NCBI RefSeq assembly: GCF_003568845.1
Contig: NZ_CP030126.1
Coordinates: forward strand, 3,331,501 to 3,395,500
Length of the DNA stretch: 64,000 bases
Reading direction: 5' to 3'
Origin: Indioceanicola profundi
GTDB taxonomy: Bacteria; Pseudomonadota; Alphaproteobacteria; Azospirillales; Azospirillaceae
Part shown: piece by piece, positions 3,193 through 39,897 of the stretch
How positions within the stretch are numbered: the stretch's first letter is position 1
Layout of the letters: each line of letters begins with the position of its first letter
Position numbers and translations under genes: made by a program
Notes under the pieces: generated by a model
Told to the model about the DNA's origin: nothing
The model's input: the letters and a program-made list of their open reading frames with translations, nothing else
Databases searched by the model: none

Positions 3193-3804
3193 CGTAGGTC
3201 GCAAGGAGCACGGCGGATTGCGACATTTCCTGCCGCGGGGGGCGGCAACGTCGCAATCCGGCCTTCGGCCTCCTTGCGACCTACGAGTCCGAAGTAGGTC
3301 GGTCACGCGGAGCGTGGCCGACAGGGTTGCTGGCGCTTCAGCGTCGGGGGCGGCGACATCATGAAAGATGAGAAGGATGGGAAGGATAAAAATGATGGAC
3401 CGGGCGCGCCGCAGGCAGTCCTGAAGACCGGGCGGAAGCTGAGGCGGAAGCCGAACAGCCCCGCTCCATCATTTTCATCCTCTTCATCATTTTCATCTTT
3501 CTAGATGTCACCGGCCCGGCCATTCGGCCCGGCTCGCGCAGGCCGTGAGAGACGGCTTGGGATAGGGCAAGGATGGATAGGATGAATGGGATGGCGCGCC
3601 GGACCAGCGGAGCCAGCCCTTCAGCGCCTGCCCGCACCAGCGGACGAGGCGCTCTCCCTCATCCCATCCATCCCATTCATCCTTTCCAATTCCCGAACCA
3701 CCTCCCTCCACAAGGAGGACGGGGCCAGATGGCCCGGACATCCTTGCCATCCATTGGGATTGGCAGGCGGCGTCGGGCTTCGCCGCGCTCAGCCCCGACC
3801 TACG
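3193..3804 (+). repeat. composite hairpin element, copy A
   Basis: About 612 bp. P1, a long palindrome with arms GTAGGTCGCAAGGAG/CTCCTTGCGACCTAC, spans 3193-3285. P2, an 11-bp hairpin GTCGGTCACGC-GGA-GCGTGGCCGAC, lies in 3294-3325. P3 (3357-3510) is a 36-bp imperfect inverted repeat of ATGATG/AAGGATG type around a 70-bp GC-rich centre. P4 (3567-3684) has AAGGATGGATAGGATG arms. The distal boundary is an inverted GTAGGTCG foot (3772-3804). Compared with copies B, C and D, P4 is inverted here. The gap from 3185 to 4450 also holds the separate repeats listed below and has no convincing gene. Confidence 0.85.
3772..3804. repeat. GTAGGTCG-foot hairpin, type 4
   Basis: Hairpin GTCGGGCTTCGC...GCTCAGCCCCGAC followed by CTACGG, so on the minus strand it reads GTAGGTCGGGGCTGAGC. 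A second copy with a few changes is at 4316-4347. It occupies the place taken by the inverted P2 in composite copies B and D. Confidence 0.7.
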
Positions 3805-4019: not shown

Positions 4020-4110
4020 CGTAGGTCGCAAGGAGCGTAGCGGATTGCGACATTTCCAATCGCGGGAGGGCGATGTCGCAATCCGGCCTTCGGCCTCCTC
4101 GCGACCTACG
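4020..4110. repeat. second P1 palindrome, solo copy
   Basis: Same module as the P1 end of the composite elements: GTAGGTCGCAAGGAGCG...GGATTGCGAC, about 25 bp of spacer, then GTCGCAATCC...CTCCTCGCGACCTACG. It begins 6 bp after the type 3 palindrome and is not followed by P2. A solo copy shows that P1 can exist outside the composite. Confidence 0.8.
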
Positions 4111-4149
4111 AATTATGGCGCCGGGCCCGGAAATACCTGAGCTTTGGTG

Positions 4150-4275
4150 TCCGTGGCATCTAAAATGAGGATGATGAACTGAGTGCGCCTCAGGCATTGC
4201 TCTAGACTGGGCATGTCCGAGCCTCAGCCGAATGGCCCTGCTTCATCATTTTCATCTTTCTAGATGTCACCAGCC
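4150..4275 (+). repeat. decayed P3 module
   Basis: Partial match to the P3 module. The right arm TTCATCATTTTCATCTTTC and the following GATGTCACC are well kept, and the central segment (GCGCCTCAGGCA, GAGCCTCAGCCGAATGGCCC) is recognisable but diverged. The left purine arm is mostly lost. Probably a relic of an older composite copy. Confidence 0.5.
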
Positions 4276-4315
4276 CAGCCATTTGGCCCGATTAGCACAG
4301 GCATTGGCAGGTAGC

Positions 4316-4347
4316 GTCGGGCTTCGCTGCGCTCGGCGCCGACCTAC
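4316..4347. repeat. GTAGGTCG-foot hairpin, type 4, second copy
   Basis: GTCGGGCTTCGCTGC...GCGCCGACCTACG. It resembles 3772-3804 and is likewise preceded by a GGCAGG-containing segment, so the two copies share flanking sequence as well as the hairpin. Confidence 0.65.
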
Positions 4348-4392
4348 GGGGCGGGGTCCCAGAGCGAAGCGCCCCGGTGTTGAAACCCCACA

Positions 4393-4423
4393 AGAAAAAG
4401 GCCGCGGGATCGCTCCCACGGCC
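4393..4423 (-). terminator. rho-independent terminator of nrdA
   Basis: Read on the minus strand: stem GGCCGTGGGA, loop GCGA, stem TCCCGCGGCC (one G-U pair), then TTTTTC. It lies 28 bp after the nrdA stop codon. Confidence 0.8.
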
Positions 4424-4450
4424 CTTGTCCAACGGCTATCGGTCAAGCCC

Positions 4451-6325
4451 TCACTGACAGGCCAGACACTCCTCATAATCCGTGCTCGCCGCAGGCATCG
4501 CGGCATCCGCGTCCTTCTTGGCCTTGCGGGCCGCGATGGCTTCGCTCTTGTCGCTCTCGGCGCGCTGCACGGAGAGGGAGCGGCAGTAGTAGAGGCTCTT
4601 GACGCCCTTCTTCCAGGCCTGGAAGTGAATCTGGTGCAGGTCGCGCTTGTGCACGTCGGCCGGCAGGAAGAGGTTCAGGCTCTGGCTCTGGCAGATGAAG
4701 GGCGTGCGGTCGGCGGCGAGGTCGATCAGCCAGCGCTGGTCCAGCTCGAACGCCGTCTTGAAAGTGTCCTTCTCCAGATCGTCAAGGAAGTCCAGATGCT
4801 GGACCGAGCCGCCATGCAGCGTGATGTCGGACCAGGTGTCCTCGTCGTTGCGGCCGTACGTCTCCAGCACCTTCTCCAGATGCTTGTTGCGGATGGAGTG
4901 GCTGCCGGACAGGGTCTTGTGGGTGAAGGCGTTGGCGGCCGTGGGCTCGATGCCGGGGCTGGTGCCGCCGCAGATGATCGAGATGCTGGCCGTCGGCGCG
5001 ATGGCGATCTTGTTGGAGAAACGCTCCTTGCTGCCATACTCGGCGGCGTCGGGGCAGGGGCCGCGCTCCTCCCCCAGCTTCAGGCTGGCGGCGTCGGCCT
5101 GGCGCTTGATGTGGGCGAACATGCGCTTGTTCCACACCTTGGCCATCACCGATTCGAGCGGAACGTTCTGGCCCTGCAGGAAGCTGTGGAAGCCCATCAC
5201 GCCGAGGCCCACCGACCGCTCCCGCATGGCGGAATACTTGGCGCGCGCCATGTCGTCCGGGGCCTTCGCGATGAAGTCCGTCATGACATTGTCGAGGAAG
5301 CGCAGCGTGTCCTCGATGAAGGTGGGGTGGTCCTGCCAGTCCAGGAAATATTCCAGGTTCAGGGAGGAGAGGCAGCACACGGCCGTGCGCTGCTGGCCCC
5401 AGGGGTCCAGGCCCGTCGGCAGCGTGATCTCGCTGCACAGGTTGGACATCTTCACGTTCAGGCCGGCCAGCTTGTGATGCTCCGGGATCGCCCGGTTCAC
5501 ATGGTCGATGAACAGAAGGTAGGGCTCGCCGGTCTCGATCCGGGCGGTGAGGATGCGGATCCAGAGATGGCGGGCGGAGATGCGGCGGATGACGCTGCCG
5601 TCCTTGGGGCTGGTCAGCGCCCATTCCTCATCCGCCTCCACCGCGCGCATGAAGGCGTCGGGGATGGCGATGCCGTGGTGCAGGTTCAGCGCCTTGCGGT
5701 TCGGGTCGCCGCCGGTGGGGCGGCGCATCTCGATGAACTCCTCGATCTCGGGATGCGAGACCGGGATATAGCAGGCGGCCGAACCGCGGCGCAGGCTGCC
5801 CTGGCTGATGGCGAGGGTGAGCGAATCCATCACGCGGATGAAGGGGATGACGCCGGAGGTCTTGCCGTTGCCCTTCACCCGCTCCCCGATGGAGCGGAGG
5901 TTGCCCCAGTAGGAGCCGATGCCGCCGCCCTTGGCCGCCAGCCACACATTCTCGTTCCACAGCCCGACGATGCCCTCCAGCGAATCGCTGGCCTCGTTCA
6001 GGAAGCAGGAGATCGGCAGGCCGCGCTCCGTCCCGCCATTGGACAGGACCGGGGTTGCCGGCATGAACCAGAGCTTGGAGATGTAGTCGTAGAGCCGCTG
6101 CGCATGCGCGGTGTCGTCGGCATAATAGCTGGCGACGCGGGCGAACAGGTCCTGGAACGACTCGCCGGGCAGCAGATAGCGGTCGGTCAGCGTGGCCTTG
6201 CCGAACTCGGTCAGCAGCGCGTCGCGCGAACGATCCACAACAACGGCCGGGCGGTTGCCCACCTGCACCTGGCCGAAAACGTCGCCACCCTGAGCCAGCT
6301 TCTTGTACATGTCCCCATCGCGCAT
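4451..6325 (-). CDS. nrdA: class I ribonucleoside-diphosphate reductase, alpha subunit
   Basis: Catalytic subunit that reduces NDPs to dNDPs in the cytoplasm, using a radical from the beta subunit. Visible residues: redox Cys107 (PISCFL), radical-site motif NLCSE with Asn295/Cys297/Glu299, second redox Cys317 or 318, the radical-transfer tyrosine pair Tyr579-Tyr580, and a C-terminal C-x-x-C (620-623) that takes electrons from thioredoxin/glutaredoxin. At 624 aa it lacks the N-terminal ATP-cone of E. coli NrdA (761 aa), so dATP overall-activity control is probably absent or different. No nrdB is adjacent: a repeat-filled gap lies downstream and an unrelated gene upstream. Start at 6325 or at Met6 (6310). 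Confidence 0.96.
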   Translation of the reverse strand: MRDGDMYKKLAQGGDVFGQVQVGNRPAVVVDRSRDALLTEFGKATLTDRYLLPGESFQDLFARVASYYADDTAHAQRLYDYISKLWFMPATPVLSNGGTERGLPISCFLNEASDSLEGIVGLWNENVWLAAKGGGIGSYWGNLRSIGERVKGNGKTSGVIPFIRVMDSLTLAISQGSLRRGSAACYIPVSHPEIEEFIEMRRPTGGDPNRKALNLHHGIAIPDAFMRAVEADEEWALTSPKDGSVIRRISARHLWIRILTARIETGEPYLLFIDHVNRAIPEHHKLAGLNVKMSNLCSEITLPTGLDPWGQQRTAVCCLSSLNLEYFLDWQDHPTFIEDTLRFLDNVMTDFIAKAPDDMARAKYSAMRERSVGLGVMGFHSFLQGQNVPLESVMAKVWNKRMFAHIKRQADAASLKLGEERGPCPDAAEYGSKERFSNKIAIAPTASISIICGGTSPGIEPTAANAFTHKTLSGSHSIRNKHLEKVLETYGRNDEDTWSDITLHGGSVQHLDFLDDLEKDTFKTAFELDQRWLIDLAADRTPFICQSQSLNLFLPADVHKRDLHQIHFQAWKKGVKSLYYCRSLSVQRAESDKSEAIAARKAKKDADAAMPAASTDYEECLACQ

Positions 6326-6328
6326 GAG

Positions 6329-6365
6329 TTATCCCCGTTTTCAACAACCGCGCCGCTGTGGATAA
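6329..6365 (-). promoter_or_regulatory. DnaA-box pair upstream of nrdA
   Basis: On the minus strand there is a perfect DnaA consensus box TTATCCACA at 6365-6357, and about 20 bp on, in opposite orientation, the weaker TTATCCCCG (6329-6337; two mismatches). The strong box is 32 bp before the nrdA start codon. DnaA regulates the nrd operon in E. coli, which supports a cell-cycle control role here; that is inference. Confidence 0.55.
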
Positions 6366-6607
6366 AACGCCTACTGGCCCAAGATGTTGCGGCGACGGGG
6401 AGGGATGGTACCAAATCTCGGGGCCCTGCCAAGCGCCAAATTTGCCGTGACGGAATTTGGCTCAGCCGCCGACGTGGTTGCCGCAGGGGGGATGCGGGGG
6501 TAGGATTCCGGCCTGTCGGGGGCACCGATCCCGCCTCTTCCTGCCAGGGAGAGGGCCGGAACCGGGCGGCTTCCACCGACGCGAGGGGCAGCGGAAAAGG
6601 GCGGCGG

Positions 6608-7969
6608 ATGTTCATCGAATGCTCCAACCTGATCACCCGGAATCCGGCGGGGCTGCATTACGGCATGGCCGTGGCCGATGTGGACGGGGACGGGCGGGAC
6701 GAGATCGTGATCGCCGGCTATGACGGGCCGAACCGAATCCTGAAATGGGACGGCTCCGGGCTGGTCGATCTGGGCCTCGAGGCTCTGGCGGATGCGGGGG
6801 CCAAGGCCGTGGGTGTGGCCTGCGGCGACCTGGACGGGGACGGGCGGGAGGAAATCTACATCCTGAACACCGACGCCTATGGCGGTACGAAGGGCGTGTC
6901 CGACCGGCTGTTCGCCTGCTTCGGCCAGCGTTGGGTGGACCTGTTCAGCCTGCAGGAGAACTGGCCGGCGATGAACCGGCATTCCGGCCGCTCCATCGCC
7001 GTGATCGACCGCACCGGCGGGGGCCGCTACGGATTCGCGGTGGCCAGCTTCGGCGGGCCGATCAAGCTGTATGAGCTGGACGACCACGGCCGCCTCGCCG
7101 ACATGGCGGAGGAGGTCGGGCTGGATGTGGAGGCCAGCGCCCGCTCCCTCCTCGCCGCCCCGCTGGTGGGGGACCGGCCGGACCTGTTCGTGGGCTGCGA
7201 GTTGGGGCCGAACCTGTTCTTCCACAACACGGGGGAGGGGGAGTTCGAGGAGATCGCGGCCGATTGGGGCCTTGCCGATCCCGGCGGAAGTGCCCGCGGC
7301 GTGGCGCTGGTGGACGGGGACGGGCTGTTCGACCTTGTGCTGGGCAACTGGCAGGGGCGGAACCGCATGTACCAGCAGCGGCCCGGCGGCGGCTTCGCCG
7401 ACATCGCCCCGCCGGTGCTGGCCGAACCGGGCCGGGTGCGCACCGTGATCGCCGCCGACTTCGACAATGACGGGCAGGAGGAGCTGTTCCTCAACATGTT
7501 CGGGGAGCCGAACCGGCTCTATGCCTGGCGGGAGGAGCGCTGGGTGCAGGTGGATATCGGCGATGCGGCGGAGCCGGCGGGGCTTGGCACGGCGGCGGTG
7601 GTCACCGACCTGGACGGGGACGGCCAGCTCGAACTGCTGATCGCCCATGGGGAGGATTCGCCGCAGCCGCTGACGCTCTATATCGCGGAGCCGCGGGGAT
7701 ACCACTGGCTGCGGGTGCGGCCGCTGACCCGGGCGGGCGCGCCGGCGCGGGGGGCGATCGTGAAGCTCACCGCCGGCGGGCGCACCCAGATGCGGGCCAT
7801 CGACGGCGGCTCCGGCTATCTCTGCCAGATGGAGCCGGTGGCCCATTTCGGGCTGGGCGAGCTGACCCGGGTGGAGCGGGTGGAGGTGCGCTGGCCGGAT
7901 GGGGAGACGGTGCGGATCGACCATCCCCAGACCTGCCAGGCGCTGACCGTCCCGCACCCGAAGGCGTGA
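6608..7969 (+). CDS. FG-GAP/VCBS repeat protein with ASPIC/UnbV C-terminal domain (CRTAC1-like)
   Basis: Beta-propeller type protein of 453 aa. At least four calcium-binding loops of the form DxDGDGxxE/DxDNDG recur through the chain (DVDGDGRDE, DLDGDGREE, DFDNDGQEE, DLDGDGQLE), each followed by a hydrophobic strand, as in FG-GAP/integrin-alpha propellers. The last 100 residues match the ASPIC/UnbV module (GSGYLCQ, HFGLGE, VRWPDGE). Homologues are normally exported, but this start (ATG at 6608) gives no signal peptide and none is encoded just upstream. The long open frame upstream of 6608 runs antisense through nrdA and is not coding. Function unknown. Confidence 0.82.
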   Translation: MFIECSNLITRNPAGLHYGMAVADVDGDGRDEIVIAGYDGPNRILKWDGSGLVDLGLEALADAGAKAVGVACGDLDGDGREEIYILNTDAYGGTKGVSDRLFACFGQRWVDLFSLQENWPAMNRHSGRSIAVIDRTGGGRYGFAVASFGGPIKLYELDDHGRLADMAEEVGLDVEASARSLLAAPLVGDRPDLFVGCELGPNLFFHNTGEGEFEEIAADWGLADPGGSARGVALVDGDGLFDLVLGNWQGRNRMYQQRPGGGFADIAPPVLAEPGRVRTVIAADFDNDGQEELFLNMFGEPNRLYAWREERWVQVDIGDAAEPAGLGTAAVVTDLDGDGQLELLIAHGEDSPQPLTLYIAEPRGYHWLRVRPLTRAGAPARGAIVKLTAGGRTQMRAIDGGSGYLCQMEPVAHFGLGELTRVERVEVRWPDGETVRIDHPQTCQALTVPHPKA

Positions 7970-24792: not shown

Positions 24793-25378
24793 CGTAGGTC
24801 GGTCACGCAGAGCGTGGCCGACGGCCTTCGCCTGTGTTCCGGGCCATTCGACTCTGTCCTTCCCGTGGGAAGGGGCGGTTCAGGGTATGGGCAAGGGTGA
24901 ATAGGATGAATGGGATGGCGCGCCGGACCGGCGGAGCCGATCCTGGATCACCTTCACGCACCGGCGGATGAGGTGTTCTCCCTCATCCTATCCATCCCAT
25001 TCATCCTTGCCTGATTCCAGACCGCCTGCCGGAACTGGCGCGGACAGGGTCGAATGGATGGGCCGGTGACATCTCGAAAGATGAAAATGATGAAGAGGAT
25101 GAAAACGATGGTGCGGGGCTATTCGGCTTCCGCCTCAGCTCCTGCCCGGTCTTGATCACTGCCTGCGGCGCGCCCGGTCCATCATCTTCATCCTTCCCAT
25201 CCTTTTCATCATTCAAGCTGTCACCAGCCCCGACGCCGAAGCGGCGATAGTCCTGTCGGCCACGCTCCGCGTGACCGACCTACTCCGGACTCGTAGGTCG
25301 CAAGGAGGCCGGATTGCGACGTTGGCGCCGGGCAATCGCCGGAACCGTCGCAATCCGCTGCGCTCCTTGCGACCTACG
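24793..25378 (-). repeat. composite hairpin element, copy B (inverted)
   Basis: 586 bp, opposite orientation to copies A, C and D. Read on the plus strand: distal P2-type hairpin with GTAGGTCGGTCACGC (24793-24824), P4 (about 24895-25011), P3 (about 25072-25220), P2 (25252-25283), P1 palindrome (25292-25378). P1 lies 6 bp from the stop codon of the acuI-like gene, its neighbour on that side. The whole gap between 24768 and 25385 is this element, with no other gene. A 71-codon frame through P3 is not considered coding. Confidence 0.88.
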
Positions 25379-32966: not shown

Positions 32967-33442
32967 CGTAGGTCGCAAGGAGCGCAGCGGATTGCGACGT
33001 CTCCCCCGCCCTGCCATGTCGCAATCCGGCCTCCTTGCGACCTACGAGTCCGAAGTAGGTCGGTCACGCGGAGCGTGGCCGACAGGGAAGCTCACCGCGC
33101 TTCGGCGTCGGGGTCCGCGACATCATGAATGATGAAAAGGATTGGAAGGATGAAGATGATGGACCGGGAGCGCCGCAGGCAGTTCTAAAGACCGGGCAGG
33201 AGCTGAGGCGGAAGCCGAATAGCCCCGCACCATCGTTTTCATCCTCTTCATCATTTTCATCTTTCGAGATATCACCGGCCCATCCATTCGACCCTGTCCG
33301 CGCCAGTTCCGGCAGGCGGTCTGGAATCAGGCAAGGATGAATGGGATGGATAGGATGAGGGAGAACACCTCATCCGCCGGTGCGTGAAGGTGATCCAGGA
33401 TCGGCTCCGCCGGTCCGGCGCGCCATCCCATTCATCCTTGCC
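32967..33442 (+). repeat. composite hairpin element, copy C
   Basis: P1 palindrome (32967-33046, a shorter spacer than the others), P2 hairpin (33055-33086), P3 inverted repeat (33121-33266), P4 (33331-33442). The distal P2 is missing; a faint CGACCTTCGACTAC near 33530 may be its remnant. P1 starts 13 bp after the SHOCT stop. The rest of the 585-bp gap up to the chemotaxis-receptor stop (33539) has no gene. Confidence 0.87.
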
Positions 33443-33538
33443 TAAACCCGAGACCAACTCTCTCCACCGGGAGGGCAGAGCCTGATATTCGGGATGAACG
33501 CTGACCCCGCTGCCCGTGGTCGATGAAACGACCTTCGA

Positions 33539-39297: not shown

Positions 39298-39897
39298 CGT
39301 AGGTCGCAAGGAGCGCAGCGGATTGCGACGGCTCCTGCCGTTTGGCGGGTACCAACGTCGCAATCCGGCCTTCGGCCTCCTTGCGACCTACGGATCGATA
39401 TCCGGAGTAGGTCGGTCACGCGGAGCGTGGCCGACAGGACTGTCCGCGCTTCGGCGTCGGGGTTCGAGACATCATGAATGATGAAAAGGATGGAAAGGAT
39501 TAAAATGATGGACCGGGCGCGCCGCAGGCCGTGATCAAGACCGGGCAGGAGCTGCGGCGGAAGCCGAATGGCACCGCACCATCATTTTCATCCTCTTCAT
39601 CATTTTCATCTTTCGAGATGTCACCGGCCCATCCATTCGACCCTGTCCGCGCCAGTTCCGGCAGGCAATCGGTTATAAGGCAAGGATGAATGGGATGAAT
39701 AGGATGAGGGAGAGCACCTCATCCGCCGGTGTGGGCTGGTGATCCAGGGCTGGCTCCGCCGGTCCGGCGTGCCATCCCATTCATCCCATCCATCCTTGCC
39801 CATACCCCGAACCAGCCCTCTCCACGGGGAGGGCGGCGTCGAATGGCCTGCCGGATGAGCGATTATCGTCGGCCACGCTGTGCGTGACCGACCTACG
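39298..39897 (+). repeat. composite hairpin element, copy D (most complete)
   Basis: 600 bp. P1 39298-39392, P2 39407-39438, P3 39470-39620, P4 39677-39800, a small CTCTCCACGGGGAGGG hairpin, and an inverted P2 ending in CGACCTACG (39868-39897). The outer ends are thus GTAGGTCG and its complement. In the P3 frame that is open for 71 codons in copies B and C, an in-frame TAA appears after nine codons here. P1 starts 5 bp after the stop of the helical protein; the rest of the gap to 39932 has no gene. Confidence 0.88.

Follow-up and report, generated by a model that had tools for sequence, protein, structure and literature searches.

The repeated composite element described here is probably, and we say so with moderate confidence, a non-autonomous, REP-bounded and BIME-like mosaic that captured two periodic-arm hairpins, P3 and P4. 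This reading draws on a mosaic build with REP borders, an intact RAYT gene between its own inverted REPs, modules that also occur singly, flanks that differ from locus to locus, and a location near gene ends. The outer borders are inverse GTAG REPs, the kind of single-stranded hairpin acted on by RAYT, and P3 and P4 belong to a different repeat class, in which purine-rich arm units of ~9-10 bp are arranged round a variable loop. P3-like hairpins would have been inserted into or beside REP dimers, and the assembled block would then have spread into the 3′ flanks of genes. Since a solo P3 is present in this genome and like-built hairpins are found in relatives, insertion followed by spread is the simplest history; we infer both the movement of the block as a unit and the manner in which P3 and P4 were captured.

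The genome (5.37 Mb) consists of four contigs (3.44, 1.18, 0.45 and 0.30 Mb), and the window, i.e. the whole stretch of 64,000 nt that was analysed, corresponds to C1:3331501-3395500. Four copies with a common module order had been reported in the window from the sequence alone, at 3193, 24793 (inverted), 32967 and 39298 (here A, B, C and D). E-values and direct reading showed these copies to be real: a search of the genome with copy D returned itself (E = 0), B (7.3e-209), C (2.5e-167) and A (1.9e-116). The family is, however, larger than four, with at least 20 units at at least 15 loci, every one on chromosome C1. Three queries (copy D, the P3-P4 core and a covariance model of P3) recovered an identical set, and this count is a minimum, as the candidates scored were the best 40 of 111, 40 of 81 and 37 of 3501 in the three own-genome searches. 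The copies in the window are composed as follows.

39298..39392, + strand: copy D, P1, a dimer of GTAG REP type a with head CGTAGGTCGCAAGG and an inverted partner that ends CGACCTACG; also alone elsewhere in the genome
39407..39435, + strand: copy D, left REP-b (GTAGGTCGGTCACGCGGAGCGTGGCCGAC), which is P2 of the sequence-only reading
39468..39622, + strand: copy D, P3 purine-arm hairpin, arms 44 nt, ~9-bp period, loop 67 nt
39624..39851, + strand: copy D, P4 module, outer inverted arms
39679-39800, + strand: copy D, P4 inner periodic-arm hairpin, loop forward
39868..39896, - strand: copy D, closing REP-b, inverse
3193..3285, + strand: copy A, P1 REP-a dimer
3294..3322, + strand: copy A, left REP-b
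3355..3509, + strand: copy A, P3
3511..3737, + strand: copy A, P4, loop inverted relative to D
3772..3804, - strand: copy A, closing REP of another type (REP-c-like, by reading), inverse
4155..4268, + strand: degenerate solo P3 near copy A, with a P1-like REP-a dimer before it (~4020-4113)
24793..25378, - strand: copy B, with P1, REP-b, P3, P4 and closing REP-b
25068-25222 and 24839-25066, - strand: P3 and P4 (loop forward) of copy B
32967..33476, + strand: copy C, with P1, REP-b, P3 and a P4 that is short at the right arm, without closing REP
33055-33083 and 33119-33273, + strand: REP-b and P3 of copy C

In the same part of the window as copy A, a 1245-aa open frame on the + strand (4232-7969) runs antisense to a ribonucleotide reductase gene (4451-6325, - strand) and continues into a real FG-GAP/UnbV gene; it is a chance fusion frame.

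Direct reading of the units gave the order P1 - REP - P3 - P4 - closing repeat. P1 (a ~93-bp REP-a dimer) is present in 5 of 20 units, all five of which start sharply at CGTAGG, and the left REP-b in 10 of 20, while P3 has 155 bp and P4 ~228 bp. Of the 15 loci, 13 are closed by an inverted GTAG REP (type b at 11, c at 1 and d at 1, with border types assigned by reading the sequences) and the other 2 have none. Unit lengths are ~500-600 bp; five of the 15 loci are double, with two units head to tail separated by a conserved linker of ~52 bp, and such double units reach ~1 kb. Moreover, REP-a dimers, REP-b dimers, P3 and P4 each also exist apart, without the others. Reading of the copies bore out a modular unit with conserved arms and loops and differing flanks, the latter being unrelated between loci beyond the right-border REP. 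The ‘inverted distal hairpin’ of the sequence-only reading is present, but the term had mixed two things, the closing inverse REP and a flipped P4 loop. P3 identity among 18 copies is 70-95% (mean 84%) and flanks differ; therefore, a recent local duplication was rejected, and copies are spread over 15 loci rather than confined to one spot, yet the unit was recognised in this genome only. No reading frame is open throughout the 20 cores, which agrees with the earlier view that the unit has no conserved protein, and a protein shared by the copies was rejected on this ground.

GTAG-tagged REPs make up P1 (a REP-a dimer), P2 (a second GTAG REP type) and the closing repeat, and they carry the GTAG tetranucleotide at one end of an imperfect palindrome of 20-50 nt. 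The pattern GTAGGTCG-N-GCGNAGCG-N-CGAC matches the genome 69 times, with one REP entered double and a single match off C1, whereas the reversed pattern has 0 matches; of 81 other family genomes, 13 have at least one match to the same pattern. The genome has one Y1 transposase gene, the product of which is a 173-aa REP-associated tyrosine transposase (RAYT; NF047646 194.9 bits with a cut-off of 80, structure 4er8 E = 9.7e-35). Its intact gene lies between two inverse REPs that share one head and belong to a third type (c), GTAGGTCGGCGCC..., so that the REPtron arrangement of a RAYT gene flanked by two inverted REPs is present for REP type c only. RAYT/TnpA-REP proteins bind and nick single-stranded REP hairpins. 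With the REPtron/TnpA-REP system (PMC8266576) this genome shares a RAYT of that family (173 aa), similar to the E. coli protein whose structure is known (4er8); a difference is that this RAYT carries its own REP type, and in our reading it would also act on REP-a and REP-b. In the same genome, a further inverted repeat, CGTCATCCCGGCGAAAGCCGGGACCCAG (L112, L120 and L121), has 6 exact matches in 464 kb; it starts with CGTC and may be a CGTC-type REP.

REP-b stands on both sides, as a BIME-like inverse pair, in D, B and five units labelled ‘b’, of which 3268b closes with REP-d. Plain REP-b dimers of ~70 bp also occur in the genome, and in copy D ~430 bp (39436-39867) containing P3 and P4 separate the REP-b pair, which is not the short linker of a BIME. 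The borders are of the GTAG REP/BIME kind, and the P3-P4 cargo lies outside that definition. In the available parts of PMC3733652 and PMC2817692, published GTAG REPs and BIMEs share with our element the GTAG head, the short imperfect palindrome, inverse dimers, the 3′-flank location and a RAYT gene between inverted REPs, whereas here two long periodic-arm hairpins lie between the REPs, in units of ~500-600 bp. REP dimers inside long palindromes in Anabaena and REPs joined to unrelated stem-loops in Pseudomonas are also described there (PMC3733652, as far as available); therefore, association of REPs with other palindromes is not new in itself. The earlier statement that no named family fits thus fell for P1, P2 and the closing repeat, which are GTAG REPs in a genome that encodes a RAYT, and held insofar as no known IS, group II intron or Rfam family accounts for the unit. 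Several observations count against the REP-bounded mosaic: the RAYT gene is flanked by REP type c and not by REP-a or REP-b, published REP dimers are far shorter than this unit, the borders read showed no target-site duplication, no empty site could be shown with relatives, which lack the unit, and many copies are not bounded on both sides, since the left REP is absent from 10 of 20 units and the closing REP from 2 of 15 loci.

In both P3 and P4, a variable loop is enclosed by long arms that are rich in purines and have a period of ~9 bp. In copy D the lag-9 periodicity is 0.74 for P4 and 0.57 for P3, and the purine content of the arms is 75-79%; both hairpins of D thus show the purine-rich inverted arms with ~9-10-bp period that we propose as the trait of their class. 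Intrastrand triplex (TM) repeats, as described in the accessible part of PMC4666352, likewise have purine-rich arms and are intergenic, but by that description they need a third tract on a homopurine strand, while the arms of P3 and P4 are 75-79% purine. In the literature searched we found no name for long periodic-arm hairpins, and the arm sequences searched as literature text matched only unrelated subjects, judged by title. Such arms are frequent in the genomes of many bacteria.

The predicted fold of copy D is strong (-352.3 kcal/mol, z = -14.9, with 0 of 100 shuffles that low), and units often begin 5-50 bp past stop codons (6-24 bp from stop codon to element start in B, C and D), with 7 of 15 loci between convergent genes, which speaks for a structured RNA, an RNA-processing element or a terminator at gene 3′ ends. 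We nevertheless hold this explanation to be quite unlikely, because on 4 of 5 measures, all of which cover P3 only, in 18 copies, the paired positions show no covariation above that of shuffles, and conserved RNA, or arms kept as exact RNA structure, is hence not supported. As many P3 pairs changed on both sides were found in 231 of 500 shuffles, and 81 of 500 reached the observed covariation; only 28 of 500 had as many cells changed on both sides, so that this value is somewhat high. RNAalifold gave a covariation term of +0.37 with 1 of 28 pairs compensated, and left arms fitted their own right arm (0.807) only a little better than those of other copies (0.795, P = 0.07), so coevolving arms were rejected. 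Moreover, arm length changes in 9-bp steps on one side only, independently of the other, many units lack some modules, and an Rfam search of the window returned 0 matches. The structured non-coding RNA suggested by the sequence-only reading is therefore not supported. The P4 loop is forward in 10 of 20 units and flipped in 10 of 20, which also counts against an RNA. Active phase inversion of this loop was rejected, as the flip needs ~2 changes on the outside tree (6 on the poorly resolved loop tree) and a single clade of flipped loops was not rejected (p-AU 0.32).

Gene context was determined with a codon-based caller, checked against Pfam for ten ORFs of the window. The composites are intergenic between unidirectional or convergent genes, as GTAG REPs are expected to be, with 8 tandem, 7 convergent and 0 divergent placements (n = 15) against 262, 72 and 70 among 404 background junctions; the convergent excess is significant (7/15 versus 72/404, P = 0.012), and the lack of divergent placement is not (0/15, P = 0.086). 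A preference of REPs for 3′ flanks has been published as well. Along the chromosome, the sign of the GC skew changes near 1.3 and 3.0 Mb, and rsmG, a ParA-type gene and mnmG, the last as a partial ORF that falls short of the full-length cut-off, are found at ~3.056 Mb; the origin is therefore placed there by the order mnmG-rsmG-parA and the skew. Frames in the mnmG-rsmG gap (L122:554-1446) look like short peptides derived from repeats. None of the 15 loci is farther than 671,855 bp from rsmG, i.e. 39% of the half-chromosome, and the loci are clustered around the origin (KS P = 4.9e-6; smallest-arc test without the origin, ~2.7e-6), in tests that assume a circular chromosome and take the origin as placed above. 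REP movement alone does not explain this clustering. An element of the origin domain, which would carry sites for a nucleoid protein, gyrase or a partition factor and be selected to stay near the origin, would explain it; in its favour, the 13 REP-d sites show no clustering (P = 0.29), and the loci face the fork in either orientation (7 and 8, respectively). However, REP-b outside composites is clustered too (8 sites, some paired, P = 0.0016) and solo REP-a borderline (18 sites, P = 0.054); therefore, the origin bias is not special to the composite. Copies of 70-95% identity that gain and lose modules are, moreover, unlike a fixed site, and we regard selection for such sites as an unlikely account of the family. 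Less likely still is a decayed conventional DNA transposon that has lost its coding part, i.e. a MITE of an ordinary IS, despite its inverted ends, dispersed copies and lack of a conserved frame. MITEs are likewise non-coding, dispersed and built of inverted repeats, and a lone P3 is MITE-like; but the ends here are GTAG REPs and not single TIRs, reading the listed unit borders by eye showed no target-site duplication, and no conventional transposase is tied to the unit ends. The repeats did not prove to be pieces of a known IS or group II intron, and searches with copy D of 72,556 plasmid and 50,697 phage records found nothing similar.

A REP-bounded mosaic remains our preferred reading of the composite. 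The search of the genome and its relatives that the sequence-only reading had called for yielded many copies at home, but DNA searches recognised the unit in none of 98 relatives (best 6 candidates per genome scored) and in none of 384 further or overlapping genomes of the class (best 2 candidates per genome scored). Seven short matches were rejected: two in relatives look coding, and of those from the class search four lie in called genes and one is AT-rich. An exact P3-arm pattern gave 48 scattered single matches among 84,980 named species, own genome excluded, and model R1 found nothing at E ≤ 0.01 on those 48 loci. Viral contigs had 0 and 1 matches to the arm patterns, and the hairpins of two relatives used as queries gave no result in phage or plasmid DNA. 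With the P3 covariance model, four matches of 30-42 bits were obtained in 80 other family genomes, whereas 365 kb from unrelated named genomes yielded no score above 20.7 bits; when read, these four have a P3-like build with other sequence, with arms such as CACAGATGGACACAGATGAACACAGAT or GGCCGCAGATGGACGCAGATGAACGCAGATG. Periodic hairpins in relatives numbered 5 (640 kb), 2 (268 kb), 0 (400 kb) and 1 (420 kb), compared with 1 in 365 kb of mixed control DNA, and a clear excess by density was rejected.

Some hairpins of this build contain or adjoin a gene of the GxxExxY family (TIGR04256; PF13366, PDDEXK_3). In our own genome, the cleanest P3 palindrome follows a GxxExxY gene (135.2 bits) by ~35 bp at C1:3187483-3188130; it is solo and near-perfect, with a unique 133-bp loop (C1:3187910-3188130, in the L022:2484-3131 region). 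Such adjacency concerns one P3, and none was seen at P4 or the composites, whose loops are too short to encode GxxExxY. In relative G027, a hairpin with arms GGGAAAACGGATTTGAACGGATCAGAACGGAT has a 402-bp loop spanning a GxxExxY gene (TIGR04256 138.9 bits; PF13366), and in relative G009 such a gene lies between TTCAACACGGAGGCACGGAGGCACGGAGG and its inverse, while a gene-less hairpin on the same contig has nearly the same arms. Several hairpins with CACAGATGGA-type arms stand beside control genes of G009 (L191, L192 and L196), and G009 therefore has many gene-less copies. Ten residues do not vary among 11 GxxExxY proteins; among them are the G, E and Y that give the family its name, as well as a D...ExK set, which we read as fitting a PD-(D/E)XK active site. 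GxxExxY and PF13366 are named in databases but little studied, and the literature searched, available in part, yielded no link of either to repeats.

Plasmid records contain GxxExxY sequences at 10 places in 8 records, 9 of which were read; the genes of our own genome, G027 and G009, whose DNA had been fetched because of the hairpins, were left out of this test. Inverted arms with a score of at least 18 bracket the gene at 3 of 9 places (Bernardetia, Bacteroides and one Gemmatirosa) against 1 of 627 control genes (P = 7.8e-6), arms with a score of at least 15 at 4 of 9 against 8 of 627 (P = 8.8e-6), and any inverted repeat within 300 bp with a score of at least 18 is found at 4 of 9 against 44 of 627 (P = 0.003); the score thresholds (13, 15 and 18) were chosen after GxxExxY hairpins had been viewed, and the control genes are mostly from GC-rich Azospirillaceae. 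An automatic periodicity filter recognised only 4 of 12 GxxExxY genes (9 of 599 controls), and the bracket test therefore rests on inverted arms and not on periodicity. At the other Gemmatirosa place, a full periodic hairpin follows directly on the gene. The coordinates of the second Gemmatirosa gene are approximate (tblastn in two pieces). On the Gemmatirosa plasmid, periodic hairpins of the GCAGAGGAC type were seen on both sides of a GxxExxY sequence (L165 ~1190-1650 and upstream). Bracketing arms are shorter at the Sphingomonas place and only 11 bp at Treponema, Prevotella has weak hairpins and Persicobacter periodic tracts. The Fusobacteria plasmid gene (L161:1100-1650) lies between direct repeats of ~45 bp with AATCCGTGTACCTAT and has no significant inverted pair; a third, diverged copy of this repeat lies farther upstream. 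In viral contigs, none of 12 GxxExxY pattern matches was confirmed.

On this evidence, we tentatively put forward as possible that P3 and P4 belong to an undescribed mobile class that crosses phyla, the full form of which carries a GxxExxY gene and the gene-less offspring of which were captured in REP dimers. In the full form, the gene for the PD-(D/E)XK protein would sit between or beside the arms, and gene-less hairpins would be non-autonomous offspring moved in trans by the nuclease, which might, e.g., cut at cruciform or single-stranded arms so that repair copies the hairpin. Capture inside GTAG REP dimers would then give a two-layer mosaic that settled around the replication origin.

Through the GxxExxY link, long periodic-arm hairpins would gain a candidate enzyme, and their mobility can be put to the test. 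In the composite, other repeats are the cargo of a REP system, and the origin-centred spread raises the question of whether elements of the REP type mark the origin domain or exploit it.
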